Positions 7,741 to 33,328 of a DNA stretch of 64,000 bases are shown here, piece after piece. Within the stretch, counting starts at the first letter, position 1. Each line of letters begins with the position of its first letter. The translations under genes and the position numbers were made by a program. This DNA is from Candidatus Rifleibacteriota bacterium (GTDB lineage Bacteria; Muiribacteriota; Ozemobacteria; Ozemobacterales; Ozemobacteraceae). Under the pieces are notes generated by a model that was not told the DNA's origin, did no database searches, and worked only from the letters and a program-made list of their open reading frames with translations. The stretch spans positions 1 through 64,000 of the forward strand of contig JAAYVD010000160.1 of the NCBI GenBank assembly GCA_012517355.1, read 5' to 3'.

Positions 7741-7777
7741 CCTTCTTTCCCGACCCGCTTTCCTGGAGCTCGTTCCC

Positions 7778-13668: not shown

Positions 13669-13692
13669 ACCGCGACAGACACGAGGCCGGAA

Positions 13693-13746: not shown

Positions 13747-13764
13747 GCCCTCACCTCGGCAGGG

Positions 13765-15633
13765 TCATTGCCCGTTCCCGGACCGACCCTCCGGCACGGC
13801 CCGGGTCCTGGACAGGACGGGCTGTTCCTCGATGTAGACCGGAACCTGGTCCAGGGTCACCGAAACCTTGCCCCGCTTGACCGCGACCCGTTCGCTGGGG
13901 CAGGCGGTCAGCGGGTTCTTCACGTCCCGTCCGGCTTCGCAGGCCGGGACCGCCCGGGTGATCACCACCTCCCGGCCTTTCACCTGGTCGATCTCGATCG
14001 TGGCTTCCGAAGAGAGGTCGTTCCAGGCAACCCAGATGCCCCTGCCACGATTGGTGAATTTGTACAAGTGCACGCCGCCGTCCTGCCGCAGGGTCCGGAG
14101 ACTCTGCCACTGGCTTCCTTCCAGCACGCCGACCATCTTCCGGTAGGTGTAGTATCCCAGTTTCTTGACGCCGCGTCCCAGATCGCCCTCGCCCTGGCCT
14201 TCGTAGATGAGACCCGTGAACTCGAAATAACCGCCGTCACCCTTGAAGCCCTCGTTCAACCCGAAGGCGGGAAAGACCTTGGAAACACCGAGCGAGAGGG
14301 GATAGACAAACCGTTTGACCAGGTCGATGGCCTGCTGCTTTTCCGTCTGCGCGGCGGGATCATAGCCGGGAATGCCGGGGAAGGGGAGGGGATTGCCGCT
14401 GTAGGTCCCCATTTCCGTGATCCAGTAGCCGGCCGGGGGGGTGAGTCCCAGGGCGTCGACTTTCTCCCGGATGTGCTCGAGCACCTCCTTGACGCCCAGG
14501 TAATCGCCGGTGGCGTCGCCATACCAGTGGAGATCGAAGATGTCGAAGGGTTTGCCGCCCAGTTTGGCCAGGTCTTCCAGGATCGGCAGGAAGGTCCGGT
14601 CGAACCCCCCGAGATACGCGGCCGTCGGGGGTTGCCCCGTGGCTCCCCCGATCATGACCAGGGCGTTCGGATCGGCCTCCTTGATGGCCGTCGCGGTGAG
14701 ATACAGGAACCGGGCATAATCGGACCGGCCGCTGGGCGGCTCGTTATCCACCTGCCAGACACGGATGGGACTGCCCAGGCCTGGCATGTCCCCGGTCCCG
14801 TCGCCGTCATACCGCTCCACGACGGCTTTCACGAACGTCTGGTAGGCGGCCTCATCCTTGGGGAGATAGGACCCGGGGCTCACCGCATATTCCGTATACC
14901 GGCCCCCCTCGGCACGGGGACTGCCCAACGCGATGTTCCCCATCATGCGCATGGAGCGGGGGAAGGAGGCGATGAGGCGATCGAACCGGTCCCACTGGAA
15001 CTCATTGACGGCCAGGTTCGGCTGCACCAGGATCCAGAAGAAATACACCATGGGCCGGTCCCACTTCACCCCGATCTCCTTGGCAAAGGAGTAGGGATCG
15101 TCGGACCCGTATGGGAACGGCGGAACCACCGCGGCGGGGTGGAAACCGAAGGGGGAATTCTCCGGAATCTCCGGGTTCAGCTCGCCGATCGTCTGTTCCA
15201 GGGCGATCAGAGAGTCCTCGGCTCCCCGCGGCAGGATGAATCCGGTGGCGGAAGCGACGGCCCCCGCGATGTCGGAATGCTCATACCCGATGTCGATCCA
15301 CTTTTCCGCGATCTCCCGGGCCGACTGGAAGAACCGGAACTGGAGAGCGCTGCCCGCCGGGGCGGCCTTGGCCATCCGGAGATGGGAGTTGAACCTCTCG
15401 ACATCCCTCTGGAACTGGATGACGGCCGACCCGGCGGTCAGGCCGGCCGCGGTGGTTCCCCCCGGCTGGCCCGCCATCGTGGCGCCAGGGGTGGGCACGA
15501 TCTGACGGGTTCCCGGCCGCGACGGGGCTCCGGGCACCAGCAGCTCGGGCGGCAGATCCTGGGAACAGGCGGCCCCGCCGCCGACGACCAACCACAGCAC
15601 CAACAGCATCGAGAGGCGTTGGCCAGGCTTCAT
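13765..15633 (-). CDS. Exported glycoside hydrolase-like (clan GH-A) probable lipoprotein
   Basis: A 622-residue protein. The N-terminus has two basic residues, a hydrophobic core and a cysteine at 23 in GGAAC, a non-canonical lipobox. The body looks like a TIM-barrel glycosidase of the GH39/GH5-like type. WQVDNEP holds a candidate acid/base Glu near 297 and WITEMGTYSG a candidate nucleophile Glu near 407. FDLHWYGD lies between them. Substrate is unknown; plant or microbial polysaccharide fragments are likely for the clan. The ATG at 15633 is preceded by GGAGAAG; a longer in-frame start exists but would put a tail before the signal peptide. A possible ECF-type promoter overlaps the end of the upstream gene. 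Confidence 0.75.
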   Translation of the reverse strand: MKPGQRLSMLLVLWLVVGGGAACSQDLPPELLVPGAPSRPGTRQIVPTPGATMAGQPGGTTAAGLTAGSAVIQFQRDVERFNSHLRMAKAAPAGSALQFRFFQSAREIAEKWIDIGYEHSDIAGAVASATGFILPRGAEDSLIALEQTIGELNPEIPENSPFGFHPAAVVPPFPYGSDDPYSFAKEIGVKWDRPMVYFFWILVQPNLAVNEFQWDRFDRLIASFPRSMRMMGNIALGSPRAEGGRYTEYAVSPGSYLPKDEAAYQTFVKAVVERYDGDGTGDMPGLGSPIRVWQVDNEPPSGRSDYARFLYLTATAIKEADPNALVMIGGATGQPPTAAYLGGFDRTFLPILEDLAKLGGKPFDIFDLHWYGDATGDYLGVKEVLEHIREKVDALGLTPPAGYWITEMGTYSGNPLPFPGIPGYDPAAQTEKQQAIDLVKRFVYPLSLGVSKVFPAFGLNEGFKGDGGYFEFTGLIYEGQGEGDLGRGVKKLGYYTYRKMVGVLEGSQWQSLRTLRQDGGVHLYKFTNRGRGIWVAWNDLSSEATIEIDQVKGREVVITRAVPACEAGRDVKNPLTACPSERVAVKRGKVSVTLDQVPVYIEEQPVLSRTRAVPEGRSGNGQ

Positions 15634-15679
15634 GACTTCTCCTTCAACCGCGATTTTGTTGCATCCATACGTCATCCGG

Positions 15680-15704
15680 TAACGTCGGGGATCCCGATCA
15701 GGTT
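15680..15704 (-). promoter_or_regulatory. Weak ECF-type promoter before the lipoprotein gene
   Basis: On the minus strand an A-tract followed by AACC (15701-15704) is separated by 16 bp from CGTTA (15680-15684). The spacing and -10 match the three stronger copies near 20.2, 25.95 and 28.1 kb, but the T-tract and leading C are missing. The expected start site lies about 40 bp before the lipoprotein ATG. Confidence 0.4.
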
Positions 15705-18562
15705 TTTTTTCTTTGGACGACGATCAGCGTCATGTCGTCTTCCCGGGAGGGACCCCCGTGGTACTCCTGCAAGGTGGTCATGACCGTCACGAAGTCGCCT
15801 TCGGGGGTGTCCGCACGGCAGCTGCGGAACAGCTCCTCCAAAGGGTCATACCCGAACTGTTTCCCGGCGGGGCTCAGGATCTCGGGCAGGCCGTCGGTAT
15901 AGAAAAAGACCCGGTCGTTCGGGTGCAGGACCGTGGAAAACTCCCCGAACCGTTTCTGACCCCTGGCCTTCATCCGGGGGTTTCCCATTCCCAGAGGGAA
16001 GGAAGATGGAGGAGTCGCGATTTCCCCGCTGCCGTCATCCCTGGTGATGAACGGATGACAATGCCCGGCACTATGGAGGGACAATCGGCCGGTGGGCAGA
16101 TCGAGATAGGAAATGATCATGGTCAGCATCATCTCCCGGCCGACGGTGGCCCGGATCATCTCTTCCAGGCGTTCCAATGTGCCTTCCGGCGGGACACCCC
16201 GTTTCGAGCTGTCCCAGACGATCGCCTTGGCCATGGCCATGAGCAGGGCCGACCGGACGCCGTGGCCGGAGACGTCACCGATGACGACGCAGGCCGTCTG
16301 CTCGCCCACCGGGAAATAATCGAAGTAATCCCCGCCCAGTTCGGAAAAGGTGAGGCACCGCCCATAGATTTCGAATCCCGGAAGCGCGAGGGCCTTCCCC
16401 GGGGAAAGCATGGTCTGGAGGGCCTGGGCGGTCGCCAGTTCCCGCAACCCCTCGATCATCTGGTTGAAGGTCTGGGAGATCTGCCCGAGTTCATCGTTGG
16501 AAACCCGGGGAACGACGTAGGAAAAGTCCCGGGTCTCGATGGCGGCGACACCGTTGCTCAGGTGCTTCATGGGCACGAGAAGGCTGCGGGCGAAGGCGAA
16601 GGCCACCGCCAGGGCGGTGATGAAGAAGAACAAGGCGAACATCCCCAGCCGGAATCGCAGGTCGAAAATCTGGTCGGCGATGCTCCGGGTCGGGAACGAG
16701 GCGATCAGGAAGAACCCGCTGAGGTTCTTTCCTGGAAGCCCCACGGACAGGAAGGACTCCCCCCCTTCCTCGAATGCGCCGCTGATCAGCGAACGTGCCG
16801 ATCGCAACCGGGAACAGCATTCCCGGACCCACGGCTGAAAATAGATCCCGGCCGGCCAGCACATCTGGGGGGTGGTTTCGTGAATCCCCAATACCCGGAA
16901 GGGGCGGGCGGAGGAATCGCTGCCGAAGATGCCGCGCAGGTAGTCGAGGCTGAAGGCGTCGGCCCGCCACGTCATCGCGAGGGCATACTCGGCGAGGCCC
17001 TGGTCATTCCGGAGAAAATCGACGAACAGGAACTGGGCCATCCCGCCCACCGAAAACAATTGGATTTCCCCGACCCGCTTCAGGACCAGGCCCGAAAGGA
17101 AGCTTCCGAAATATCGCTCCATGCCGGACCCGGGTTGGTCCTGGAACGGTACACCGAACTGGCGAAGCTGGTTGTGGTTCATCAATCCTTTGTACAGAAT
17201 GGAAGCCAGCAGGCCGTATTCCGACCTTCCTTCGCCTCCCCGGAGGGAGCTGAAGACCTTTCGCCCTTCCTGGTCCACGATGACCGCATCCTGGAAATTC
17301 AGGTCCTTGAATCCCTCGAGAATCCTGGCGCCGACGGTCCCCGGATCCCGCTGTCCCGGGGGGTAGGTGGCGTGGAGACGCCGAAGCAGTCGGGCAAAGG
17401 CCCGTGGGAGATTGTCGTCCACGAGCTGCAGGTAATCCCCCATCTGCTGAACGATCTGGTTCTTGAGGTTCTGCTGCTTCTCGAGGAGGAATTCGTAACT
17501 GGTGAAACCGAGGACGATCAACGGAAGGCCGGAGGAAAACATGAATAGACCGACGAGTTTCCACCGGATGGAGATGAACATCGGCGTTTCGCGCACGATG
17601 ACCAGGAAGCTGCCAGCGCCCAGGACCAACCCCAGGAGGAGAAGGCCTGCCGAAAAGGCCTGGCGAAGTCCCTGGGGAAGCCGGGTCTGGGCAAGATCCG
17701 TCCATCCCCAGAAAAACAGGCCTGCCGGGCCGGGGCGGACGACGACCAGGTTCTGATCATCGCCATGAATGGCCGCCAGGCTTTCCTCATATTGGCGGAC
17801 CGCCTCTCCCAGGCAGTTTCTGATGCCGGGGGGGACAGGATCCCTGTCGGGGCGGTTGGGGTCGTAGATTCCGAAAAGAAGGCCGGGGGAACGCGCATTG
17901 AGCGAGGCGAGGATCTCCCGGATGCAGGCCAGTCCGTCGAGCCTGCCGGTCTTGATGAAACAGAACAGCCCGAACCGGGGGGTGACGTGGTGGAAGAAGA
18001 TGGGGACCTCCGGCAGGTCGCTGGCCGGGGAGACTTCGCGCAGGAACGACTGGTTGAGGATCTGGCCCAGGGTGATCTTTTCCCCCAGGAACCGCTGGAT
18101 GTCCTCGCTCCGCTCCTGGAAAAAGGCATCCAGGATGGCGACGGATTCACGGAAGCCGGGCATTTTCAAACCGAGGTAGAGGTGCCGGAGAATCTCCTGA
18201 CGGACTTCCCCTTCCACGGGATGGAAGAGGGCATCGCCGCTGCTGGCCACCAGATGGAAGGAAAACACCCCGGGAAACCGCCGGGAAAAGTCTTCTTCGA
18301 CCTGCTGCAAGGCGGGAACCGGGTCGGTGGCCAGCTCCACTTTCGCCCCGGCCTTCTCGAGGGTGTCATACAGCCATGCCCCCCGTTGGGCCTGTCGCTG
18401 CAAGGATTCCAACCGTTCGGTCAGTTTCTCCTGGGAGATGGTTCGATGGTTGGTCCGGCTCAGAGCCTCGTATTTTTCCAGGCCAAGCTCGGCCACGAAC
18501 AGCGGAAAAACGCAGAACACCAGCCAAAACGACACCCAGATGCCGAATTTCCGTATTCTCAT
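15698..18562 (-). CDS. HAMP-SpoIIE family serine/threonine phosphatase
   Basis: A 954-residue membrane phosphatase with the same architecture as the pair at 7.8-13.7 kb: an N-terminal helix near 6-26, an exported domain, a double helix in the middle (around LLLLGLVLGAG and GLFMFSSGLPLI), a second exported domain, a last helix (FFFITALAVAFAF), HAMP and a C-terminal SpoIIE domain. Catalytic motifs GGDYFDYF, GDVSGHG, FYTDGLPE and EDDMTLIV are intact. The probable target is a phosphorylated STAS protein; one candidate is encoded at 30.3 kb (inference). ATG 18562 follows GGGGAtgtc and starts directly before the signal anchor; the upstream in-frame extension is repeat-rich and rejected. Confidence 0.9.
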   Translation of the reverse strand: MRIRKFGIWVSFWLVFCVFPLFVAELGLEKYEALSRTNHRTISQEKLTERLESLQRQAQRGAWLYDTLEKAGAKVELATDPVPALQQVEEDFSRRFPGVFSFHLVASSGDALFHPVEGEVRQEILRHLYLGLKMPGFRESVAILDAFFQERSEDIQRFLGEKITLGQILNQSFLREVSPASDLPEVPIFFHHVTPRFGLFCFIKTGRLDGLACIREILASLNARSPGLLFGIYDPNRPDRDPVPPGIRNCLGEAVRQYEESLAAIHGDDQNLVVVRPGPAGLFFWGWTDLAQTRLPQGLRQAFSAGLLLLGLVLGAGSFLVIVRETPMFISIRWKLVGLFMFSSGLPLIVLGFTSYEFLLEKQQNLKNQIVQQMGDYLQLVDDNLPRAFARLLRRLHATYPPGQRDPGTVGARILEGFKDLNFQDAVIVDQEGRKVFSSLRGGEGRSEYGLLASILYKGLMNHNQLRQFGVPFQDQPGSGMERYFGSFLSGLVLKRVGEIQLFSVGGMAQFLFVDFLRNDQGLAEYALAMTWRADAFSLDYLRGIFGSDSSARPFRVLGIHETTPQMCWPAGIYFQPWVRECCSRLRSARSLISGAFEEGGESFLSVGLPGKNLSGFFLIASFPTRSIADQIFDLRFRLGMFALFFFITALAVAFAFARSLLVPMKHLSNGVAAIETRDFSYVVPRVSNDELGQISQTFNQMIEGLRELATAQALQTMLSPGKALALPGFEIYGRCLTFSELGGDYFDYFPVGEQTACVVIGDVSGHGVRSALLMAMAKAIVWDSSKRGVPPEGTLERLEEMIRATVGREMMLTMIISYLDLPTGRLSLHSAGHCHPFITRDDGSGEIATPPSSFPLGMGNPRMKARGQKRFGEFSTVLHPNDRVFFYTDGLPEILSPAGKQFGYDPLEELFRSCRADTPEGDFVTVMTTLQEYHGGPSREDDMTLIVVQRKKT

Positions 18563-18676
18563 GACATCCCCGTTGGTATGGTCATTTGCGCTCTCTGAGC
18601 CTCCCGGCGTGGTCAAACGGCCGGCCTCCGTTCCCCCCGGGGTGCCGACCGGCACGAGGTCGGCCATACCCCTTTG

Positions 18677-18725
18677 CCGCTACGGAGGGCGGCGCGAAAC
18701 GGCAGTTTCGCGCACCGCAAAGGGG
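18677..18725 (-). repeat. Dispersed 49-bp palindromic repeat, copy 1
   Basis: Read on the minus strand it is CCCCTTTGC, 16 bp, then GTTTCGCGCCGCC and TCCGTAGCGG. The same order and spacing recur at 49252-49300. The copy also contains nested inverted repeats: GCGCGAAAC/GTTTCGCGC (18692-18713) inside CCCCTTTGC/GCAAAGGGG (18669-18725). It lies in the 286-bp gap between two minus-strand genes, downstream of the EF-hand gene. Confidence 0.75.
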
Positions 18726-18771
18726 CCGCCCGGTTCCTGATCAGGCCCCGCAAAGGGGGCGCGCCCTTCGT

Positions 18772-18848: not shown

Positions 18849-19916
18849 TTACCAGAGCAGGTCCCGGTCCATACCTTCTCCGCCCCCCCGCCTGAGGGCA
18901 TCCGGCACGGAGTGGTCCGGTCCTCCCGGCGTCGTGAGGAGCGAGCGGAATCCGCGTCGGGAGCCGGGGTTGCCCGGTTCCCCGGCGCCCCGGGGAGAGG
19001 AGGCCGTCAGGCCGGAAGTCTGGGCGGACGCCACCCCTCCCGACGGGGACTCTTCAACCGGGACCGGCAACGGTGTCTGGTTGATCACGATGTCGGCGGC
19101 TGCTTGACCAAGAACATCCCTGAGATATCCGGTGTATTCCTCCTGGGTCAAAGCTTCGTCATCATTCTCGTTGGCCATCAGGAAGATGGCCTGGACCATC
19201 GGGGGGAGTCGTTCCACCTGTTGGCGCTGTGGGTGCGGCAAACGGACGAGCCCGGCGTTCAGGGCGAACATCCGCTTGTCGATCATCGGGTTGACGAAGG
19301 GCTGCATCGTCTGGATCTCCCCGGGATCCAGGCGACCGTCCCCCTGGGTATCGAATGCGGCAAGGAAATCCAGAAGGGCTTCGGGAGGCCGTAACGGGGC
19401 GATCTCCCCCGCTTCGATGGAGCCGTCCTGGTTGCGATCGAGGCTGGCAACGAACTGCTGAACCCTGGCCTGGTTGAAGGCCCTCTGTTTGTCCCGCAGG
19501 CCCTTGCGGAACTCCCCTGTCGATACGGCCCCGTCAGCGTCCGTATCCCAGGCCGAAAAAACCGCTTTCATCCGGGTGTCCCTGATGTTGGCCAGCTCCT
19601 CGGCTGACAGGCGAAGATCGCGGTTGGCATTGTTGTTGGACCAGACCAGGATCGCCAGATTGAAAAAATCGATATCGGGTCGCCCAGTAGGAGGCGGCCT
19701 CCCTCCTGGAGGTCCTCCAGCCGGTCCGGGGCCACCCAGACCCGGACCTCCCTGGGGCGGCCACCCCGGAGGAGGGGATGGAGGGGAGGAGAAACCCCAC
19801 GGATTCTGGTGAGAGGGAGGCGCCACCGGAGGCCCACCCTGGGCAAAGCCGCTGTCGGCCAGGCCAAGCCAGCAGACCACTCCTCCCAACACCCCGAGCA
19901 GAGCGAGACGTTTCAT
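18849..19916 (-). CDS. Secreted EF-hand calcium-binding protein
   Basis: A 355-residue protein with a Sec signal peptide (cleavage probably at FAQ, residue 23-24), a Gly/Pro-rich segment to about residue 80 and several EF-hand loops: DTDADGAVSTGE, DRNQDGSIEAGE, DTQGDGRLDPGE and a weaker NENDDEALTQEE. It therefore likely binds calcium outside the cytoplasm. The region from the last EF-hand (TGYLRDVLG...PLPVP) and the extreme C-terminus DRDLLW match the paralogue at 29.0 kb, which ends DRELLW. It is divergent from the ECF sigma operon. ATG 19916 follows GGAGGG with good spacing. Confidence 0.85.
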   Translation of the reverse strand: MKRLALLGVLGGVVCWLGLADSGFAQGGPPVAPPSHQNPWGFSSPPSPPPGWPPQGGPGLGGPGPAGGPPGGRPPPTGRPDIDFFNLAILVWSNNNANRDLRLSAEELANIRDTRMKAVFSAWDTDADGAVSTGEFRKGLRDKQRAFNQARVQQFVASLDRNQDGSIEAGEIAPLRPPEALLDFLAAFDTQGDGRLDPGEIQTMQPFVNPMIDKRMFALNAGLVRLPHPQRQQVERLPPMVQAIFLMANENDDEALTQEEYTGYLRDVLGQAAADIVINQTPLPVPVEESPSGGVASAQTSGLTASSPRGAGEPGNPGSRRGFRSLLTTPGGPDHSVPDALRRGGGEGMDRDLLW

Positions 19917-20182
19917 GGCTGGCTTTTCCCTCCTCATCCGTTCGGGGCATTCTACCATGGCGGCCCGGTCCGGGCGGGCAGGAATGGGGCCGGTTCCTGG
20001 AAATGCCTGACCTCCAGGACGATGGAGCGGCCAAAGGAGGCTTGGCCGACTCCTTGCCAACCTGCCCAGATCCAGGCTGGCGGGGCACACCTCCCAGTCC
20101 ATTCACGGGCAAAGGTCTCCTGCAAAGATCGGGCCTTTTCCTCGCCTTTTTCCAGGGTTTTTGCTACTTTGGCACGGGAGAG

Positions 20183-20214
20183 TTTTTTCAACCTCGGGGG
20201 AACGGGCGCCGTTA
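20183..20214 (+). promoter_or_regulatory. ECF-type promoter of the sigma factor operon
   Basis: A T-tract and CAACC (-35, ending at 20193) are separated by 16 bp from CGTTA (-10, 20210-20214). AAC in the -35 and CGT in the -10 are typical of ECF sigma promoters. Identical spacing occurs at 25943-25974 and 28091-28123, which suggests the sigma factor drives its own operon. Confidence 0.7.
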
Positions 20215-20271
20215 CAGGGGAATACAAGCCTGAGTGATTGGCGGCGGAAAGCGGATTTTCCAGGAGACGAT

Positions 20272-20823
20272 ATGGTGGCAGCCCACGAGTTTGCCTCACT
20301 CACCGACGACCAACTGATCCAACAGGTCCAGGCTGGAAGGAGCAAGGCGTTTGGAGAGCTGGTGCAACGGTATCTGCGTTTCTGCCAGGCGTATTTCTTT
20401 CGCAAGGTGTTTGACAAGGAGGCGGCCCGCGATCTGTCCCAGGAGGCGTTCATCTCGGCCTTCAATGCCATCCAGAGATTCGAACCCGGCAGCAATTTCA
20501 AAGGATGGCTGATGACCATCTGCCGCAACAAGTTTCTCGATTATCTTCGCTCCGTCAGACGGCGGGAAACCCCCGTCGAACACGTGGAAGCCCACACCCC
20601 GGGGATCGAAAACACCATTCTGCGGTCGACCACCATCGCCGAGGGTCTGAAACTGCTCGACCCCCTTCAGCAGGAGGTCGTGGCCATGAAATACATGGGC
20701 GACATGAGCTGCCAGGAGATCGCCAAGGCCCTCGAAATTCCGGAAGGAACGGTCAAGAGTTTCCTGTTCGGGGCCCGGAAGCGGCTGTACGAATACTTCC
20801 AGGGCAAGGAGGTTGAAGGATGA
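20272..20823 (+). CDS. ECF-family RNA polymerase sigma factor
   Basis: A 183-residue sigma-70-family protein of ECF size. Region 2 is seen in FGELVQRYLRFCQ through DLSQEAFISAFNAI and GWLMTICRNKFLDYLR. Region 4 is LDPLQQEVVAMKYM followed by the helix-turn-helix SCQEIAKALEIPEGTVKS. ATG 20272 is chosen over an earlier in-frame ATG at 20161 because AGGAGA stands just before it and the putative promoter lies between the two. The stop overlaps the anti-sigma gene by ATGA, the usual arrangement for a sigma/anti-sigma pair. The upstream ECF-type promoter implies autoregulation. Confidence 0.93.
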   Translation: MVAAHEFASLTDDQLIQQVQAGRSKAFGELVQRYLRFCQAYFFRKVFDKEAARDLSQEAFISAFNAIQRFEPGSNFKGWLMTICRNKFLDYLRSVRRRETPVEHVEAHTPGIENTILRSTTIAEGLKLLDPLQQEVVAMKYMGDMSCQEIAKALEIPEGTVKSFLFGARKRLYEYFQGKEVEG

Positions 20824-21932
20824 CCACCCTCTCCCGTGAATGCGAACGATTCCAGCAGTCGGTCATGAGTGCCGACACCGGTGCGGAGAAGCCCGATCCG
20901 ACCCATGCCAGGATGTGCGCCACCTGCGCCGAATTCCTGCGGCGGTATGAAAGCTTCGAAGGGAAGTTGAAGGCCGAGTTCGACCCCTCTGACTATCAAC
21001 CTCTCCCCCTGGCGAAGAACCCCTGGGAATCCCCCTCGCCGGCCAGCCGGGAAGAATCCGGCCCATCGTGGTGGGACACCTGGCTCGCCTTCCTGACCCC
21101 CCCCCGGCTCGCCGTCGCCATGGCGGCCGTGCTGGGAGTCCTGGTCCTCCTGCCGGTCTGGTGGCGAAGAGGTCCCCTGCCCGGGTCCGGGGCGGAGACG
21201 TCCTATCTCGCCGAACACGAAACGGCGATGCTTGCCGCCCTCGAGTCGGGAACCGGGACCGTCACCTGGCAGGGCCGCCCCCTGGAACCCGGTTCCGCCA
21301 AAGGGATTCCGCTCGGGGATCCTCTCCGCATCGCCGGGGAAGCGGTTCTCACCCTTCCCAAAGGGGTCCGGGTCACCGGATCAGACGCGGAGCTGCGCCT
21401 GTGCCGCGCCGGGGTGGAACTGGCCCGGGGCCGCCTGGAGGTCTCGGTGACCCCGACCCCCTCTCCTTTCCGCGTGCGAACACCCACCGCCGAGATCAGC
21501 GTCCTGGGCACCATGTTCACCGTTACGGTCGCCAACGACGGGACGACCGCGGTGGCGGTGGCCTCGGGAAAGGTCCGCGTCGCCCCGCTGACCGGGGCCG
21601 AAGGTGAGCGGGCGCTGGCTCCCGGGGAATCCTTCGTTGTGGCAGGGCAGGCCGGCTCAACCCCGGCGACCGCCACTCCTCCGGTGCCGGTGACTTCCGG
21701 ACTGCCCGCCTCGCCTCCGTCCGGAGCGTCCTTGGCCCCCGTCCTGTCGCCAGCCACCCCGGCTATTACCGCTACCCCCGCTTTCACCGCCACCCCGTCC
21801 GCCCTCACCACCGCCACGGCCGCCCAGGTCGGGTCTCCGGCGCCGGCGGCGGTGGCATCTGATGTGGTTCCCCTCGAGCCCACCACCCTGTCCTCTCCCC
21901 TGGATGACCTGAACAAGCCGTCTTCCCACTGA
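20820..21932 (+). CDS. Zinc-finger anti-sigma factor with FecR domain
   Basis: A 370-residue protein. Residues 29-36 hold H-x3-C-x2-C (HARMCATC), the ZAS motif of anti-sigma factors that bind ECF sigma factors. A single transmembrane helix (about 96-113) follows. The exported part has a FecR-type segment (RTPTAEISVLGTMFTV, VAVASGKVRV) and a long Thr/Ala/Pro-rich tail. It probably holds the cognate sigma factor at the membrane until an envelope signal arrives. A run of nine C at about 21097-21105, just before the helix, could slip. It is translationally coupled to the sigma gene. Confidence 0.85.
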   Translation: MTTLSRECERFQQSVMSADTGAEKPDPTHARMCATCAEFLRRYESFEGKLKAEFDPSDYQPLPLAKNPWESPSPASREESGPSWWDTWLAFLTPPRLAVAMAAVLGVLVLLPVWWRRGPLPGSGAETSYLAEHETAMLAALESGTGTVTWQGRPLEPGSAKGIPLGDPLRIAGEAVLTLPKGVRVTGSDAELRLCRAGVELARGRLEVSVTPTPSPFRVRTPTAEISVLGTMFTVTVANDGTTAVAVASGKVRVAPLTGAEGERALAPGESFVVAGQAGSTPATATPPVPVTSGLPASPPSGASLAPVLSPATPAITATPAFTATPSALTTATAAQVGSPAPAAVASDVVPLEPTTLSSPLDDLNKPSSH

Positions 21933-22033
21933 TCATGAACGGTGTTGTCGATGTGGACCACGGTTCCCGGGCGGCATCAGGCGCGATTCCGTCGGGTCGG
22001 GCCGTGGTCGATCTTCCATCAGGAGGAAGCGAA

Positions 22034-22570
22034 ATGCCGAACCGACGCCTGCCGCGGGGCCGGGGTCTGGCCCTGATTCTTTCCCGATCCTTCCTGTGGC
22101 TGTGGCTTGCCCTGTCCAGCCTCCCTCTTTCGGCCCAGATCCCCCTCGAGGATGAATACCGGGAATGGAATCAGGTCATCGCGGAAGCGAAGACGATGGC
22201 CCAGGACCTGACGAAAGCCTATCAGGCCGCCGCGGCGGGGTCCGGGAAAGACCGGGGCCAGGCCGGATTCTTCGACCCCACCCTGCTGGACCTGGAGGCG
22301 AGGTTGAAACAGAAAGACCTCAAATCCCGGCTGCTCTATTCCCCGCGCTTCCCCCCGGAACACCGGGCGGTTCTCGACGGGTATCTCCAGGAGATGGCGC
22401 GTTGCCAGGCCGCGCGCAACGCGTTGCAGCCTCCGCTTCCGTCTTCCCCCGATGCCCCGCCCCAGGCGTCCGGCACCACCACCCCGACGGGCGTGGACCC
22501 TGCCCGGGAACTCCCCAAACCCGCCCCGCCCCGTCCTCGGGAATCCGCTGCGCCGGCCGGTCCTGAATGA
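22034..22570 (+). CDS. Exported protein of unknown function in the ECF operon
   Basis: A 178-residue protein with a signal peptide (hydrophobic core LWLWLALSSLPLS, cleavage probably after SAQ), a helical charged middle (residues about 38-115) and a Pro/Ala-rich C-terminus. No family is recognised. ATG 22034 is preceded by AGGAGGAAGCG, a strong ribosome site, so the longer in-frame start at 21935 is rejected. It lies between the anti-sigma gene and the pilin-like genes and is probably part of the same transcript. Confidence 0.7.
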   Translation: MPNRRLPRGRGLALILSRSFLWLWLALSSLPLSAQIPLEDEYREWNQVIAEAKTMAQDLTKAYQAAAAGSGKDRGQAGFFDPTLLDLEARLKQKDLKSRLLYSPRFPPEHRAVLDGYLQEMARCQAARNALQPPLPSSPDAPPQASGTTTPTGVDPARELPKPAPPRPRESAAPAGPE

Positions 22571-22607
22571 CCCCCCGCCCGGCGAAACAGGTTCCGCCCC
22601 CGAACCC

Positions 22608-24692
22608 ATGAGATCCCGCCGTGGCTCATTGCTCGTTCTGGTCCTGACGATGGTCTTCGTCGGGGCGGTCCTGGTCATCAGCCTGTTCGATGTGCTCCGG
22701 GAACGGTATTTCCAGACCTACCGGATGATCGACGACCGTATGGCCGAGCACCTGTGCCAGTCGCTTCTGGAGATCTCGAACTACGAACTGCAAAAGGCTT
22801 TGCTGGATGCAGGGGACATCCGCCGGAAGATCCAGACCCTCGCCCTCCCCTGTGGGACCGAGGACGTGCTGGTGTGGAGCGAGGCCGCCTCGTTCCAGGA
22901 CTCCCTGTCGAAGGCGATGGACAACTACCTGGCCACGTTTTCCGAAGGCGAGACCCGCACGATGTCGGTCAAGGTGCGGGCGGTCCATCTGTGGCTGACC
23001 GACGTGAAGGTTCTGGGCAGGAAAGGCCCGGGCTACCAGTGGAGCGATCCTGGCGAACGGATCGGAACCTTTTCCTTCCACCTGGAGATCTCGGTGAACG
23101 CGGTTCGCAAGAAGCTGGTGGCCAACCGCGCCTTCCAGATCGTGAACCATCTCCCCGGTCCACTTGGCCGTTTCACCCTGTTCGTGAAGGACGCTTCCGG
23201 CGAGAACTACAATCTCCTCGACAACGACTCCGACGGCACCCCGGTGTCCGACCGGTCGCCCCTCGTCTGCTACCACGGGACTTCCGACCAGCTCGACAAA
23301 AACGGGTTTGTGTTCCTCGGGGGGGATGACCCGCTCACGTTGCGGTTGACCCAGGGCTACGGCAACCGGCGCACCGGCGAGTATTTCCATTTCCTGGCCC
23401 AGGGTCAGGACTATGACCCCGATTTCTATGCCGGGAAGGTTTTCACCCCGCCGTCGGCCGATGCGGGAGGCGTTCCCTGGGTTTCCTATCTTGGTCTGAT
23501 CGAGGCCGCCGGCGTGCCGTTTCCCGTCGACCTGAAGGTGGATGAGAAGTATTTCGGGTTCTATTCGACCAGCCCGAAAGGGTGGAGCGTGAATCTTCTC
23601 AACGCCCTCGATTCCTTCTTTCTCGGTCAGAACATGGATACGAAATCGAGCCTTCTTCATCTGGAGGGGGCCTTCCAGCATCCCCGGACGGGAGCTGACG
23701 GAAGAACCCCGACCTGGGTGCTGGGAAACGTCCGGCGGCTCTACGCCATCATCCGGTTGCTGAAGTTCGACAGTCTTCCCGCCGACGGGGTCCTGGGCGC
23801 GGTGGCGGTCATGAAAAGCCCGGTCGAGCCCGCCACGGACCCCGATTTCTGGAACGTGGTGAACGCGGGTCTTCCGACCACGGTGTCGGAGGCGGGGGCC
23901 GGATCCTTCACCGTGAGCAAGCCCTTCCAGGAGGAAGGGTTTTCCGACATCTTCGCTTCGGCGCAACGCTATCTCGCCAACGCGTCCACTTTGGTCATGA
24001 CCGGCTCGGAACTGGGAGAACCCTTCAACGAATTCCTGCGCGGGTATTTCCAGGACCGTTCCGACCTGGCCGGGAAGGTCGCCATCGACGAGGGCAGGAA
24101 GATGGTGCTGCAGTTCGCCGGTGGGGCACAGGCGGGGCGGAGCGGGGAGGCCTTTTCCGGGGATCTTTCCCGGATTCCGCCCGACCTGCTCGAATACAAG
24201 GCTCTTCTGGCGATCACCCGGGACCGCTTCCTGAAACGGTATGCCTCTGGCAACAAGCTGGCGTTGCGGGTCCCGGTCCTGGTGACCGACGAAGAGGACA
24301 CCCTGTCGCTTCCCTCCTTGGAAGTTGCGGAAGGAACCATGGGCACCCTCTTTTTCGCCAAGGACATCGCTCTCGACGGCCTCACCAGCAAAACCAACGC
24401 CCTCGATGCCCAGGGCAACCTGAACTTCTGCTCCCTTGGCGGAGACATCACCCTGGCGTCCACCCAGGAATACCAGGCGAATTTCCTCGCCCTCGACGGT
24501 ACCCTGCGACCCGCTGGGGTGTGGAACATCTGGGGGAACGCCTGCGTTGGCAAGCTGCCCGCCGCCGCGCTGGAACGGGGTGGCCGCCTGGAGTATAACC
24601 CGTTCGACAATCCCGAGTCCCCATCCTACGGATTGTTCGACGGTCTGTATCTGAGCGACCGCTACCATGCGTATTCCCTGTCGTCGGAATGA
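22608..24692 (+). CDS. Large PilX/GspK-like pseudopilin
   Basis: A 694-residue protein. The N-terminus MRSRRGSLLVLVLTMVFVGA is a short basic leader, a glycine and a hydrophobic helix, as in type IV pilin-like proteins. The usual Glu at mature position 5 is absent, as in GspK-type tip pseudopilins. The rest is a large exported domain with no recognised family. Start ATG 22608 gives the prepilin leader directly; upstream in-frame ATGs would bury it. Two further prepilin-like genes follow with a 4-bp gap and a 4-bp overlap, so the three probably form the minor part of one pilus or pseudopilus. Confidence 0.7.
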   Translation: MRSRRGSLLVLVLTMVFVGAVLVISLFDVLRERYFQTYRMIDDRMAEHLCQSLLEISNYELQKALLDAGDIRRKIQTLALPCGTEDVLVWSEAASFQDSLSKAMDNYLATFSEGETRTMSVKVRAVHLWLTDVKVLGRKGPGYQWSDPGERIGTFSFHLEISVNAVRKKLVANRAFQIVNHLPGPLGRFTLFVKDASGENYNLLDNDSDGTPVSDRSPLVCYHGTSDQLDKNGFVFLGGDDPLTLRLTQGYGNRRTGEYFHFLAQGQDYDPDFYAGKVFTPPSADAGGVPWVSYLGLIEAAGVPFPVDLKVDEKYFGFYSTSPKGWSVNLLNALDSFFLGQNMDTKSSLLHLEGAFQHPRTGADGRTPTWVLGNVRRLYAIIRLLKFDSLPADGVLGAVAVMKSPVEPATDPDFWNVVNAGLPTTVSEAGAGSFTVSKPFQEEGFSDIFASAQRYLANASTLVMTGSELGEPFNEFLRGYFQDRSDLAGKVAIDEGRKMVLQFAGGAQAGRSGEAFSGDLSRIPPDLLEYKALLAITRDRFLKRYASGNKLALRVPVLVTDEEDTLSLPSLEVAEGTMGTLFFAKDIALDGLTSKTNALDAQGNLNFCSLGGDITLASTQEYQANFLALDGTLRPAGVWNIWGNACVGKLPAAALERGGRLEYNPFDNPESPSYGLFDGLYLSDRYHAYSLSSE

Positions 24693-24696
24693 GACC

Positions 24697-25182
24697 ATGA
24701 ACCCCCGGAACCACCGTACCCTCTCGGGGATGACCTTTCTGGAATTGAGCATCGGAGCTTTCCTGCTCGCCTTGGTCCTGCTGCCCCTGCTCTCCCATTA
24801 CGCCAGCGCCCGCCGCAGCTTCGGCACGATCGCCGGGCGCCATGCCGCCATGAACGCGGCGGACGAGATCCTGCAGCAGGTGTTCATCATCCCCGTGGCT
24901 GACCTGGTCTCCGTTACCGACCTGGACATCCCGGCGTCGGCCACCCGTTTCCTTCTCGATCCCCGGAATGTATCGACCACGATGTTCTGCCAGGAGGTGC
25001 CGCCGCCGTTCTCCCGGAAACTGACCATTGTCCGGGATGCGAACAAGCCCCTGGCCGAAGCCATCATCAGGATCTCCTGGTCCGATTCCCCACGGGACGT
25101 CTACATCGAACGGGTGTTCCTGCACGATCTCACCTGGAGCACCTGGCTGCCCGATACATACGGCACGGGAACGAAGCCATGA
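24697..25182 (+). CDS. Prepilin-type N-terminal methylation protein (minor pseudopilin)
   Basis: A 161-residue protein with a prepilin peptidase site G^MTFLEL near residue 11: glycine, then a hydrophobic helix with Glu at mature position 5. This is the signature of type IV pilins and type II secretion pseudopilins. It starts 4 bp after the preceding gene and overlaps the next one by ATGA. The small globular part has no identified family; a GspI/PilV-like role is the closest guess from position and size. Confidence 0.8.
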   Translation: MNPRNHRTLSGMTFLELSIGAFLLALVLLPLLSHYASARRSFGTIAGRHAAMNAADEILQQVFIIPVADLVSVTDLDIPASATRFLLDPRNVSTTMFCQEVPPPFSRKLTIVRDANKPLAEAIIRISWSDSPRDVYIERVFLHDLTWSTWLPDTYGTGTKP

Positions 25183-25778
25183 GTCATCGACGCCGTGGCC
25201 TGACCGTGACCGAACTTCTGGTGGTCCTCGCCCTGCTGGGCGTTTTGACCCTGGGCCTCTTTCACGTCTCCCGCAGTTTTTTCCGGCAGTATTTCCAGAT
25301 CGAGAATTCCCTCACCCTCATGTCAGAGGCCGGGATCTTTTTCAGCCGGCTCGGCCAGGATGTCCTGACGGCCACCGGAGACCCCGCCGCCTGCCAGGAT
25401 CTCTTCCGGTTGCAGGTGTCTGCCACCGACTCCTGGACCCTGACCTTCGAGCGCTATGCGGAGGGGAAGATCGCCACGGTGACCTATTCGCAAAAGGGCA
25501 ACGAGATCGTGCGCGAATGTCAAGGGCAGACCCAGGCCTTCACGTTTTCCGGATCCGTGGTCCTGCACCGTCTCGAACCCGAGCTGTTCGACCCGTCACC
25601 CGGGGAGATCGCTCCCCGTGTCTGGCTCAATGTGATCATGACGGTCACCACCGACTCTCCCGGCCAACTGGTCCCCGGCAAGGGCATCAGGTTCAGCCGT
25701 CTGTTCTTCCCCACCTTCTTCAATCGGCGCTTGAACAGTTCCTGGATCGACAACAGCCGGTTCACGATCGGACCCTGA
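25179..25778 (+). CDS. Prepilin-type N-terminal methylation protein (GspJ/PilW-like)
   Basis: A 199-residue protein with the leader MSHRRRG, cleavage G^LTVTELLVVLALLGVL and Glu at mature position 5. Size and position after the GspI-like gene suggest a GspJ/PilW-type minor pseudopilin, but only the N-terminal signature is clear. It is the last gene of the apparent sigma/anti-sigma/pseudopilin operon. The 250-bp gap that follows contains the next ECF-type promoter. Confidence 0.8.
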   Translation: MSHRRRGLTVTELLVVLALLGVLTLGLFHVSRSFFRQYFQIENSLTLMSEAGIFFSRLGQDVLTATGDPAACQDLFRLQVSATDSWTLTFERYAEGKIATVTYSQKGNEIVRECQGQTQAFTFSGSVVLHRLEPELFDPSPGEIAPRVWLNVIMTVTTDSPGQLVPGKGIRFSRLFFPTFFNRRLNSSWIDNSRFTIGP

Positions 25779-25942
25779 CCCTTCCTGCTCCTGACCCGAG
25801 CCGCCTCCGGCCCCTGCAGTATGCTCCGTGGACGATCTGCTCCGCCTCCGCCCTTTTCGCTCCGGGACGGCCTTCCCCAGCTTCGGGCCGTTCTCTTTCC
25901 CTGATGACGACGGTTCCCGTGATGGCGATGGTTTCCGGAAAG

Positions 25943-25974
25943 ATTTTTCAACCGCCTCCCCGGGAGGGCCGTAA
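25943..25974 (+). promoter_or_regulatory. ECF-type promoter, copy 2
   Basis: A T-tract and CAACC (ending 25953), 16 bp, then CGTAA (25970-25974), about 55 bp before the exported-protein gene at 26030. Same layout as the promoter of the sigma operon. Confidence 0.65.
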
Positions 25975-26029
25975 TGAATGGCCGAGAAGTCCGGCTGAAC
26001 AAAACCACTTCATCAGAAGGAGAACGCAT

Positions 26030-26986
26030 ATGAGTCACCCTCACCGCCTGGTCTCCGTCCTCATTGGCCTGATGCTGGTCGCGGGGGCCACCTTCGGGGC
26101 CGACCCGGTCGACGATCTGATGAACTCCTCGTCGGGGACGGAAGCATCCTCCGCCACAGCAATCGCCTCTCCCAGCGGGACCGTCTCCTCCTCGGGGACT
26201 TCGGATATCGGCGACGGCCTGACTCCGGCGGAAAGAGGCAACGCCATGAGGGAACTGGCCGCCGTGTATGAGACCCTGACCGACGAACAGAAGGCGTCGC
26301 TGTTCACCAATACGCTCCGCATGTTCAACCGGGATCGCGTCTTTTTCCTGCGGCTGTGCGCCACCGGCCGCTTCGCCCACGCCCGAAACATCATCGAAAA
26401 GTGGCTCGGGATCCTCTCTTCCCAGATGGGAAAGGATTTCTTCGCCTCTCTGGGCTACGGCGCGGAGGATGTCAGAAAGGCCCTCGAGGAGGCCTACACG
26501 CTGTTGAATTCCCAGGCGAATGGTGATGACACGGCCTCGTCCGCCACGAGCATCATGGCTTCGGCCACCATCATGCTCTACCAGGAGGAACTGGGAATCT
26601 ATGAAGCGGAGAAGGCCGCCGCCGAAGCCGCCACCCCCGGCAGTCTCGAACAGTTCAACCACCTGCAGGCCATGGGGGATCTGGCCTTTCGCTGGATGAC
26701 CATCACCACCAGGGACGCCACCGCCGCCAAGGCGCTGAAGAGCCTCGGGTATACCATGCCGGCCGATGCCCGGAACGCCCTCGATACCGCCATCAAGACG
26801 CAGGTTGACCAGATCCTGACGGATGCCGCCGCCCAGACCCTGACCGGCCAGGTCCTGGACGATTTCGAAGCCTGGGCCAAGAAGAACCCGTATGTCGTGA
26901 ACTTCTGTGTCAAAACCTACGGCGCCGGATTCTGGGCAAAGTTCGATGCCCTTCAGAGTTCCCTGCGCGAAGGTTCATCCAACTGA
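26030..26986 (+). CDS. Exported protein of unknown function, putative ECF target
   Basis: A 318-residue protein with a signal peptide (LIGLMLVAGATFGA, cleavage near residue 24), a Ser/Thr-rich stretch and an otherwise helical body with no recognised domain. It has one isolated cysteine in the N-terminal half and one near the C-terminus. ATG 26030 follows AGAAGGAGAA, a strong ribosome site. An ECF-type promoter lies about 55 bp upstream and a perfect 13-bp hairpin follows the stop, so it is probably a single-gene transcript. An abundant structural or cell-surface role is possible but unproven. Confidence 0.8.
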   Translation: MSHPHRLVSVLIGLMLVAGATFGADPVDDLMNSSSGTEASSATAIASPSGTVSSSGTSDIGDGLTPAERGNAMRELAAVYETLTDEQKASLFTNTLRMFNRDRVFFLRLCATGRFAHARNIIEKWLGILSSQMGKDFFASLGYGAEDVRKALEEAYTLLNSQANGDDTASSATSIMASATIMLYQEELGIYEAEKAAAEAATPGSLEQFNHLQAMGDLAFRWMTITTRDATAAKALKSLGYTMPADARNALDTAIKTQVDQILTDAAAQTLTGQVLDDFEAWAKKNPYVVNFCVKTYGAGFWAKFDALQSSLREGSSN

Positions 26987-26998
26987 GATTGGCTCGAG

Positions 26999-27032
26999 GC
27001 AACCGGCCCGGGCCCCAAGCCGGGCCGGTTGC
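26999..27032 (+). terminator. Perfect 13-bp stem-loop
   Basis: Arms 26999-27011 and 27020-27032 pair perfectly around an 8-base loop, 13 bp after the stop of the preceding gene. No T-run follows. Confidence 0.65.
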
Positions 27033-27118
27033 CATGACGGAAGGGCTCCCCAGGGAGTTTCCCCTGGCCTGGCCCGCCCCGGTGACTTGATGCCGTTGAG
27101 GCAGTCGAGGGAGGAGAC

Positions 27119-27838
27119 ATGCGAAAAATGTTCATGGGGGTGATCCTGATGGTTGGAATGGGCTCGGGGTGCTGGGCGGACCTGGCGGAGGCGGAACGGG
27201 CCATGATGCGCTACGATTTCGCCACCGCCCGGAGCATCCTCCTGCCCATGGCCGAGGCGGGAGACCCTCGGGCCCAGGTCCTTCTCGCCGACGTGGCCAG
27301 CCTGAACTACCCGGGGGACCCCGTCGAGGTGGAGAAATGGCTGCGGAAAGCCGCCGCGCAAGGGGATGCCGAGGGCCAGAGGCGGTTGTCCATCTTCCTC
27401 GGGAGATCCAAATCCTCGGAGGCCCTCGAATGGCTGGAGCGTTCGGCCGCCCAAGGCAATGCCTCCGCCCTGACCGATCTTGGCGTGAAACTGACGTATG
27501 GCGAGGACTGCCCGATCGATTTCCAGAAAGCCGCCCGATGCTTCGCCCAGGCTGCCGCCACCGGTGACGGCATCGCCCAGGCCTGGTATGGGGATTGCTT
27601 CCGCCTCGGCCAGGGGGTGCCCCCCGACGATGAGCGGGCGTATTTCTGGCTGAAACTGGCGGTCGACCGCGATGAGCGGGTCCGGGGAAAGGATTGGGAG
27701 CGGGACCTTGGGCGCATCGCCAGCCGTCTTTCCCAGTCCCAACGGGACCGCCTGGACAAGGAAGTCAGCGAGTGGCAGCCCTCTTCCTCTGCCCCCCCGC
27801 CTGATACCGACCCAGCCTCCTCCCCCAGCCGGAAGTAG
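27119..27838 (+). CDS. Exported Sel1-repeat (TPR-like) protein
   Basis: A 239-residue protein. A signal peptide (core FMGVILMVGMGSG) is followed by Sel1-type helical repeats: AEAGDPRAQVLLADVA, KAAAQGDAEGQRRLS, RSAAQGNASALTDLG and AAATGDGIAQAWYGD, ending in ERAYFWLKLAV. Such repeats mediate protein-protein contacts, often in the periplasm. The C-terminus is Ser/Pro-rich. No ECF-type promoter was seen before it. A 10-bp perfect hairpin lies about 130 bp after the stop. Confidence 0.85.
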   Translation: MRKMFMGVILMVGMGSGCWADLAEAERAMMRYDFATARSILLPMAEAGDPRAQVLLADVASLNYPGDPVEVEKWLRKAAAQGDAEGQRRLSIFLGRSKSSEALEWLERSAAQGNASALTDLGVKLTYGEDCPIDFQKAARCFAQAAATGDGIAQAWYGDCFRLGQGVPPDDERAYFWLKLAVDRDERVRGKDWERDLGRIASRLSQSQRDRLDKEVSEWQPSSSAPPPDTDPASSPSRK

Positions 27839-27965
27839 CAAAGCGGGGGGGCCGGATGCCCGCGCCCTCACCACCAGAGTTGCCACTTCCGGCTTCCCTT
27901 GCCGCGCCATTCCGTCAGTGAGGTGGGTTCCTTGTCTGAGACGGGTTCCCGAACCCGCCAAAGTT

Positions 27966-27988
27966 CCCCCGGGATGCCATCCCGGGGG
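27966..27988 (+). terminator. Perfect 10-bp hairpin with 3-base loop
   Basis: CCCCCGGGAT and ATCCCGGGGG pair around GCC, between the Sel1 gene and the next promoter. No T-tract; a terminator role is probable from position. Confidence 0.45.
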
Positions 27989-28090
27989 CGGTCAGGCGAT
28001 GTCAGGAACATCCCCTCGGGTGACCGCCGCTGACATGGGCCATCAGAGCGGCCCGAAGCCCTTTTCCAGGCTGGAAGATTTTTTTCTGAT

Positions 28091-28123
28091 TTTTTTTCAA
28101 CCGGGCCTGGAAGGGCGTCGTTA
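28091..28123 (+). promoter_or_regulatory. ECF-type promoter, copy 3
   Basis: A long T-tract and CAACC (28098-28102), 16 bp, then CGTTA (28119-28123). It rules out the earliest in-frame start (28123) of the gene that follows. Confidence 0.7.
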
Positions 28124-28224: not shown

Positions 28225-28878
28225 ATGTCTCTCCCGAAGCGCGCGGATTTCCTGAAGGTGCTCGCCCTGGCGATGATGTGCCTTCTCCTGACCGGTGCCT
28301 GCGCCTGGGCGGGCCCGTTCGACGACGAGACGATCACCGTGGCCGATGTGGCGGGGGCCTCCGCCGCCGGGGCCGGGCACAAGGCGCTCGGTTCATCCTC
28401 CTCCCGGAGCGCACAGAGTGGCGCAACCGTGTGCGGAACCCTCAAGGATCCTGACGGGACCGTTTTGCGGAAGAGTCTTCGGGTGTATCTCTGGAACAAG
28501 GAACGGGCCTTCGAGATCACCACGGATTCCGGTTCCTTCCAGGTGCAGGGGATCCCCGCCGGCGAGTATTGGATGGACCTGTTCGTCGTGGGTGGCCGCG
28601 GTGGTGCTTCGGCGAGGATCGCCAAGTTCTATACGAAGTTCGAGAGGGGGACGCAGGAGTTGGACTTCGTGCTGCCCAAGGACAATGCCGCGGACCAGCG
28701 GGGGCGGGTCGAGAAAGCCACCGCAGGGGGAGAAAATCCGACGGCGGCCTCCCATTCCCGCGAGAAGAACAAATCGGCGGTTGCCGATGAGCCCACCCAG
28801 AAGACCGGTTCGACGGGGTTCCTGAAGAAGGGTGACGAACTGGGCCGGTCCATCGGCGCCAATCCCTACGAGTGGTGA
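28225..28878 (+). CDS. Exported protein with a carboxypeptidase-regulatory-like beta domain, putative ECF target
   Basis: A 217-residue protein. A signal peptide (MSLPKRAD, core LALAMMCLLLTG, cleavage near AWA) precedes a small beta-sandwich of the CarboxypepD_reg/SpaA-like kind (GTLKDPDGTVL...TTDSGSFQVQGIPAGEYWMDL). The C-terminal half is Lys/Glu-rich and probably disordered. Two starts have good ribosome sites. ATG 28159 (GGAGGTG) would add 22 residues before the signal. ATG 28225 (GGAGGTGA) places the basic residues right at the signal core and is preferred. An ECF-type promoter lies about 100 bp upstream. Confidence 0.75.
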   Translation: MSLPKRADFLKVLALAMMCLLLTGACAWAGPFDDETITVADVAGASAAGAGHKALGSSSSRSAQSGATVCGTLKDPDGTVLRKSLRVYLWNKERAFEITTDSGSFQVQGIPAGEYWMDLFVVGGRGGASARIAKFYTKFERGTQELDFVLPKDNAADQRGRVEKATAGGENPTAASHSREKNKSAVADEPTQKTGSTGFLKKGDELGRSIGANPYEW

Positions 28879-29038: not shown

Positions 29039-30265
29039 ATGAAGCGTGCCGTGATGCTCCTGGCCTGCTGGGCGATGGTTTCGCCCGCCGCCGTTGGGCA
29101 ACCATTTCCCCCGGGGTCGCCCGGTCGATCGGGTCCGGGGGCCACCTTTCAACAGATGGAGGGTCGACCGACCGGTCCGGGGCGTGAGGACCCGGCGGTC
29201 ATCGAGGAGCGGATCCGGGTGTTCCTGGAAAAGAACAAGGAAAAAGGCTGCCGGGGCGAAAAGGACCACCTGGGGCGGACCCAGGTGTTCGATGCCGAGG
29301 GCCGAAACATCACGTTCCAGGTGATCGGCAATGGGCCTTCGGGTTTCCCACCCAGGGAGGGGCGGGGGGGCGGTCCGGGCTTCCCGGGTTCCCCGGGTTC
29401 CCCGGGTTCCCCGAACCCCCAGGGCGATCGCTCGGCGGTGGGGCCTTTTGGCACCCTGCTCATGACCACCCTGGAGGAGTTTTCCCGCCTGGATACGGAC
29501 AAGGATTCCTCTCTCTCAACGGAGGAATTGGCGAGTGCTTCCGGGGAGGCCCTCCGGAAGATGCTTCAAGACCACGATGGGGATGGCAACAAGTGCCTTT
29601 CCCTGGCCGAGCTTTGCCGGGGTCTCCGGGCCAGCGAGAAGGAGGTCCACTCGGCGTTTTTCCAGCGAATCGTTGCCAAGCTCGATGTCAACGGCGATGG
29701 CAGGATCGAGGCCAAGGAGCTCGATGACCGCCCCCCCTCCCCGGAGATCCTGGAAAGCCTGGCCGCCATCGATGCCGACGCGGATGGCTCGCTGTCGCCC
29801 GCGGAACTGGAAGTCCTGAAGGGGTATGTCAACCTGGTCCTGCAGAAGCAGAGATTCACCCTGGATGCCCAGTTGGTGGGAAAACCCTGGGATCAGGTGA
29901 ACCAGCTTCCCCACAAGGCCAGGAATACGTTCTTCCTGGCCGATGCGAACCAGGACCGGAATCTGACCTCCGAAGAATTTCGGGGGTATCTCGTCGATAC
30001 CCTCGGGGAAATCCCCGGCAACATCGTTTTCAAGCAGCTTCCCTTGCCGGCACCCTCCCCGAATGGTCCCTTCACCAGGCTGGCGGAAAGGTGCCGGCAA
30101 CAGGCTGGCGCGGCCGCAGGCCAGCCGGTGATTGGCGGCCGCCCCACCGGTCAGCCATCCCCGGGAAATGTCCCGGCGCCCAATCTCCCTGGGAGGAACC
30201 CGGAAACCGCTCAGGAAAAGGCCCTGCAACGGCTCATCGGGAACGACCGCGAACTCCTCTGGTGA
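29039..30265 (+). CDS. Secreted EF-hand calcium-binding protein, paralogue of the 18.8-kb gene
   Basis: A 408-residue protein with a signal peptide (core AVMLLACWAMV, cleavage near AVG-Q), a Gly/Pro segment with a short GSPGSP repeat (nt 29395-29415) and up to five EF-hand loops: DTDKDSSLSTEE, DHDGDGNKCLSLAE (irregular), DVNGDGRIEAKE, DADADGSLSPAE and DANQDRNLTSEE. The block after the last loop (FRGYLVDTLGEIPGNIV...PLPAP) and the terminal DRELLW match the paralogue at 18849-19916. The two genes flank the ECF region, and both probably act outside the cytoplasm. A hairpin starts directly after the stop. Confidence 0.85.
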   Translation: MKRAVMLLACWAMVSPAAVGQPFPPGSPGRSGPGATFQQMEGRPTGPGREDPAVIEERIRVFLEKNKEKGCRGEKDHLGRTQVFDAEGRNITFQVIGNGPSGFPPREGRGGGPGFPGSPGSPGSPNPQGDRSAVGPFGTLLMTTLEEFSRLDTDKDSSLSTEELASASGEALRKMLQDHDGDGNKCLSLAELCRGLRASEKEVHSAFFQRIVAKLDVNGDGRIEAKELDDRPPSPEILESLAAIDADADGSLSPAELEVLKGYVNLVLQKQRFTLDAQLVGKPWDQVNQLPHKARNTFFLADANQDRNLTSEEFRGYLVDTLGEIPGNIVFKQLPLPAPSPNGPFTRLAERCRQQAGAAAGQPVIGGRPTGQPSPGNVPAPNLPGRNPETAQEKALQRLIGNDRELLW

Positions 30266-32943: not shown

Positions 32944-33240
32944 CTTCTCCTGTTCCTCTTTCCTGGAATCCTCTTTCTCGCTCATTTGTCTTCGGAATGC
33001 GTTATTCCTCAGGCAAGATCCGTGTTCTTCCTCTATTGGTGGTGCCCCGCTCGCCCCTTCCCCAGTTTCTCCCTTTCTCCTGTTCTTTTTTCCTGAAATC
33101 CTCTTTCTCGCTCATTTGTCTTCGGAATGCGTTATTCCTCAGGCAAGATCCGTGTTCTTCCTCTATTGGTGGTTCCCCGCTCGCTCCTTCCCCAGTCTCT
33201 CCCCTTCTCCTGTTCCTCTTCCCTGAAATCCTCATTCCTC
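32944..33240. repeat. 130-bp tandem repeat (two full units and a partial third)
   Basis: CTCTTTCTCGCTCATTTG starts at 32971 and again at 33101, and TGTTCCTCTT-type words recur at 32951, 33081 and 33211, giving a period of 130 bp. Units are over 90 percent identical by eye. Each contains GGAATGCG...TTATTCC and a GATCCGTGTTC...TTGGTGGT segment. Base use is more T-rich on this strand than the neighbouring genes. It fills the gap upstream of the HEAT gene and downstream of the protease gene. No coding role is supported. Confidence 0.85.
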
Positions 33241-33270
33241 TTTCCCGCTCCCTTCCAGATCCACCAATGA

Positions 33271-33301
33271 AAAGCCCCCAGGCCGCTAGGGGCCCGGGGG
33301 C
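33271..33301 (-). terminator. Intrinsic terminator of the clostripain-like gene
   Basis: On the minus strand GCCCCCGGGCC and GGCCTGGGGGC form an 11-bp stem with one wobble around a 6-base loop, followed by TTTTC. It lies 28 bp after the stop. Confidence 0.75.
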
Positions 33302-33328
33302 GCAGGAAAACGGGATCGTGAAGGCGGT

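Follow-up and report, generated by a model that had tools for sequence, protein, structure and literature searches.

Gene organization and predicted promoter sites

The window, the entire stretch of DNA that was analysed, covers positions 1-64000 of contig C61 (110,649 bp) within a 7.1-Mb assembly. It contains genes for an ECF sigma factor, a membrane anti-sigma factor and pilin-like and exported proteins together with predicted promoter sites, with operon limits and start codons read by eye:

20162..20170, plus strand: TGCTACTTT, candidate extended -10 of a putative housekeeping promoter for basal sigma expression
20183..20214, plus strand: P1, predicted ECF promoter of the sigma operon, TTTTTTCAACC-N16-CGTTA, with -35 box TTCAACC (20187-20193) and -10 box CGTTA (20210-20214)
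20272..20823, plus strand: ECF sigma factor (Sigma70_r2 5.7e-16; Sigma70_r4_2 3.5e-12)
20820..21932, plus strand: membrane anti-sigma factor (FecR 8.4e-11) with Hx3Cx2C motif (HARMCATC) and one transmembrane segment
22034..22570, plus strand: small exported protein of the sigma operon, with signal peptide
22608..24692, plus strand: PilX-like pilin-related protein
24697..25182, plus strand: PilV-like prepilin
25179..25778, plus strand: PilW-like prepilin (N_methyl 3.3e-5; TIGR02532)
25943..25974, plus strand: P2, predicted ECF promoter, TTTTTCAACC-N16-CGTAA
26030..26986, plus strand: exported protein, predicted P2 target
27119..27838, plus strand: exported Sel1-repeat protein (Sel1 1.8e-17), with a paralogue in the P4 operon
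28091..28123, plus strand: P3, predicted ECF promoter, T-tract CAACC-N16-CGTTA
28225..28878, plus strand: small exported protein, predicted P3 target, with ribosome site GGAGGTG and signal peptide
C61:85431, outside the window: P4, candidate promoter with one mismatch to the motif, between genes, ahead of the gene for a small exported protein (L044:2589) and that for a Sel1-repeat protein

The sigma factor, a protein of 183 amino acids composed of regions 2 and 4 only, scores above the cut-off of TIGR02937. The start codon of the anti-sigma gene overlaps the end of the sigma gene, which places both in the same predicted operon, and the FecR domain constitutes the outer part of the anti-sigma factor. 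A family search against Pfam and NCBIfam gave no match for the small exported protein 22034..22570.

Paralogous exported EF-hand proteins with 36% identity are encoded on either side of the sigma locus (18849-19916, minus strand; 29039-30265, plus strand), while positions 7598-18565 harbour a row of several large membrane proteins, at least one of which possesses HAMP and SpoIIE phosphatase domains and the others of which look alike. A repeated intergenic sequence (GTGCCGACCGGCACGAGGTCGGCC-like; 18590-18760 and L044:6740-7100) apparently returns as a series of copies at a later point of the contig; a short repeated segment, visible as repeated peptide strings in the translations of open reading frames, is located between two genes at 32985-33330.

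The pattern TTTTTCAACC-N16-CGTWA has three exact matches in the window, 20184-20214, 25944-25974 and 28093-28123, all on the plus strand, so that the T-tract with CAACC, the spacer of 16 bp and the CGTTA or CGTAA box, as previously described from the sequence alone, are reproduced exactly at all three sites, which are, however, clustered and not scattered as that description had it. The looser pattern CAACC-N15-17-CGTWA retrieves the same three sites in the window, with 0.17 expected in dinucleotide shuffles and none of 100 shuffles reaching three; three exact sites would fall within 8 kb by chance with a probability of about 1e-6, a rough figure computed after the sites had been seen. The spacers of the three sites, which agree at 1-8 of 16 positions, are unrelated, and thus the sites are not duplicated DNA. 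When P1-P4 are compared, essentially nothing but the two boxes aligns, and as spacers and flanks are unalignable, the likeness of the boxes points to selection on both of them and not to recent duplication. All four sites are intergenic, 56-128 bp upstream of start codons and on the same strand as the gene, and face genes for regulatory or exported proteins.

Distribution of the motif in the genome

Pattern searches over the 7.1-Mb assembly, with the reversed pattern as control, gave three exact copies of the T-tract motif, one copy with one mismatch (C61:85431) and five with two, while with up to three mismatches the 87 matches, compared with 75 for the reversed control, correspond to background. 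CAACC-N13-19-CGTWA matches 12 times, less often than its reversed control (55), with a spacer of 16 in only five of the matches, namely the three window sites, C61:85436 and C103:3343. The latter was rejected as a promoter site, as it falls within an open frame interpreted as cas1. Since degenerate matches occur at the frequency of the control, the regulon recognisable by its motif comes down to four promoters on one 110-kb contig. The genome-wide scan proposed in the sequence-only reading consequently yielded matches placed as promoters, but the enrichment is confined to four sites, all on C61, and the regulon is smaller and more local than had been expected.

The short form TTCAAC-N17-CGTNA is also present in genes, from which it could be argued that the sites reflect chance or codon bias (TTC AAC reads Phe-Asn) in a GC-rich genome. 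The 13 other matches in the genome are all located in open frames, with codon periodicity clear at most of them (three are less clear) and lacking at P1-P4. As the four sites are intergenic and clustered, have the T-tract in common and reappear at corresponding positions in other genera, an origin by chance or codon bias is extremely improbable. Sigma-54 and FliA promoters were rejected on sequence.

Predicted target genes and a weak additional site

Besides its own predicted target gene, P2 probably also serves the Sel1-repeat gene 27119..27838. A domain of the P2 target is found again in larger exported proteins elsewhere in the family (L208-L211, L213), whose genes adjoin FecR-type genes in another genus and, in the genome of the window, a second gene for an Hx3Cx2C anti-sigma factor (C98). 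Downstream of P3, 28225, which is preceded by a good ribosome site and followed by a signal peptide, is the likely start codon, not 28123.

A further site and the gene behind it were considered:

13765..15633, minus strand: glycosidase-like lipoprotein
15680..15704, minus strand: weak candidate site AACC-N16-CGTTA, upstream of the lipoprotein gene

The string exists as had been described when it was proposed as the fourth site, with the right spacing, but it reads AAAAAAAACC where P1 has TTTTTTCAACC, has neither TTC nor a T-tract, and takes its AACC from the last codons at the 3' end of gene 15698-18565, which leaves its role as a promoter unproven. C61:85431 outside the window is the better candidate for a fourth site. 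The lipoprotein and the P2 target share a stretch (E 5e-6), and a homologue of the lipoprotein in genome G021 is encoded directly upstream of another ECF/anti-sigma pair.

Related boxes beside sigma homologues in other genera

The closest homologue of the sigma factor, with 44% identity, is encoded in a genome of another genus (G003), where it adjoins counterparts of PilX, PilV and PilW in an order differing from the window. The PilX-like protein matches the equivalently placed G003 protein weakly (E 1e-4), the PilV-like prepilin matches a G003 gene over its N-terminal segment (E 0.006) and the PilW-like prepilin has its counterpart at E 4e-6. As with P1 and P2, boxes are found upstream of the homologous sigma gene (TTCAACT-N16-CGTCA) as well as of the exported gene that follows PilW (TTCAACT-N16-CGTTA; L080:7499), and two of the 29 motif matches in G003 are no more than 1 kb from the sigma homologue, where 0.002 would be expected by a rough, post hoc estimate. 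Counting against the promoter reading, the -10 box before the G003 sigma gene (L080:8400-8434) ends only 6 bases from the likely ATG, so that either another start or a leaderless mRNA, which is possible, would be needed. In G007 and G014, two genomes of a third genus, the box is similarly close to the start of the sigma gene, with AGT in place of CGT, a substitution that also counts against the promoter reading.

Other sites in G007 and G014 show the CGT box: TTTTCAAC-N17-CGTT or TTCAAC-N17-CGTT precedes genes for exported proteins that are divergent to the sigma homologue, and the same boxes stand before orthologous secreted peptidase-like genes elsewhere. In these two genomes, eight of 17 matches are non-coding and face a gene, compared with none or one of 14 for the reversed pattern. 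Homologues of a clostripain-family (C11) peptidase gene of the window (33329-34675, minus strand) directly follow the motif-bearing exported genes beside the sigma homologues of G007 and G014; no motif was found upstream of the window gene itself. A first footprint search based on AACC had failed in the relatives because TTCAAC is followed there by T, A or G. As the set of 15 sites was chosen by pattern, the invariance of TTCAAC and CGT within it is by construction. Further points against the promoter reading are that two homologues of the same clade (G001, G010) have no such motif upstream and that, in the tree of the wider clade with its eight members, no supported branch unites the four motif-bearing sigma factors.

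Among 31 ECF genes, TCAAC-N17-[CA]GT is located only upstream of the window sigma gene and three near homologues. This distribution bears on the question whether P1-P4 serve another ECF factor, with the local sigma factor merely being a target, as 22 matches to ECF-type sigma factors were obtained in the genome and AAC/CGT boxes are common to many ECF groups (PMC8103513). With the motif tied to the sigma locus and to the closest homologues in other genera, and absent upstream of 27 other ECF genes, assignment to another factor is unlikely. Less likely still is a function of P1-P4 as operators for a classical transcription factor or as RNA elements of the 5' leader: while the T-tract and the strict conservation are readable as a binding site, the half-sites are asymmetric and spaced as in ECF promoters, and the leaders fold no better than shuffles (z -0.5 to 0.6), have no Rfam match and are mutually unrelated.

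A model of the regulatory circuit

Our assignment of P1-P4 as promoters of the ECF sigma factor 20272-20823, its own operon included, is highly likely, and builds on the sites, their uniqueness, their promoter position, their conservation across three genera and the domains computed here; recognition by the local sigma factor, like the signal release, operon limits and basal promoter considered below, we infer. AAC/CGT boxes, a co-encoded anti-sigma factor and autoregulation are hallmarks of ECF systems (PMC8103513), whose promoters require a rigid spacer (PMC6411747), and Hx3Cx2C is found in about half of the membrane-bound anti-sigma factors of the ECF class (PMC7406223). The locus combines a sigma factor restricted to regions 2 and 4, an anti-sigma factor in the same operon, and AAC -35 and CGT -10 boxes at fixed spacing, and by these hallmarks the circuit fits an autoregulated ECF factor.

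The anti-sigma factor (20820-21932) would hold the sigma factor at the membrane via its Hx3Cx2C domain, while its FecR domain may monitor the outside of the cell, an envelope signal presumably freeing the sigma factor. Polymerase with the sigma factor would then read TTTTTTCAACC as -35 and CGTWA as -10, 16 bp apart (17 from TTCAAC). P1 is predicted to drive its own operon, encoding the sigma factor, the anti-sigma factor, an exported protein and three pilin-like proteins; further targets would be two adjacent units for exported proteins within the window, plus one operon at a distance of 57 kb.

Basal sigma factor probably comes from a housekeeping promoter of its own. TGCTA is found upstream of five of the eight sigma genes of the clade, as opposed to one of 23 other ECF genes, with the box located 68-110 bp upstream of the matched sigma sequence (window; L081, L082, L083, L084) and four of the five fitting the extended -10 TGnTAnnnT, which suggests a basal promoter distinct from P1.

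Very probably, the locus thus represents an ordinary autoregulated ECF/anti-sigma system whose compact regulon comprises pilin-like and exported proteins. The self-regulated regulon of envelope and exported proteins initially proposed gains support from the uniqueness of the motif, its promoter position and its conservation in two other genera. Only tentatively can the sigma factor be viewed as a regulator devoted to a pilin-like apparatus for export or at the surface, together with its cargo; it would then sense the outer surface through the FecR domain and control the three pilin-like proteins and the recurrent exported partner proteins. A limited literature search found no description of an ECF/FecR pair governing a pilin-like apparatus.

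Comparison with known systems

With the Bacillus factors SigW, SigM and SigY and their RsiW-type anti-sigma factors, the system has in common the two-domain sigma factor, the co-encoded membrane Hx3Cx2C anti-sigma factor, an AAC/CGT-type promoter with fixed spacer and the predicted autoregulation. The sites may resemble SigW-type promoters. The best NCBIfam equivalog matches of the window sigma factor include all three families, but with scores far below the cut-offs (SigY 97/194, SigM 83/190, SigW 80/209), and the system differs from this type by the FecR domain on the anti-sigma factor, by its four promoters for pilin-like and exported proteins and by TTCAACC-N16-CGTWA with an upstream T-tract.

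The outer FecR domain on the anti-sigma factor is shared with FecI/FecR, from which the system departs by its Hx3Cx2C anti-sigma domain and by the predicted autoregulation, which is absent from FecI-like factors (PMC8103513). The anti-sigma factor matches the Pfam FecR domain alone, reaching 16 bits with the FecR equivalog model (cut-off 385), and a Pfam and NCBIfam search of the P1-P4 genes found no FecA-like TonB-dependent receptor. The analysis provides a concrete, testable list of promoters and targets for an ECF/anti-sigma pair that none of the named ECF families takes in at its cut-off, and ties otherwise unknown exported proteins to ECF signalling, with a promoter kept in three genera while the target sets differ, being local in two and partly dispersed in the third.
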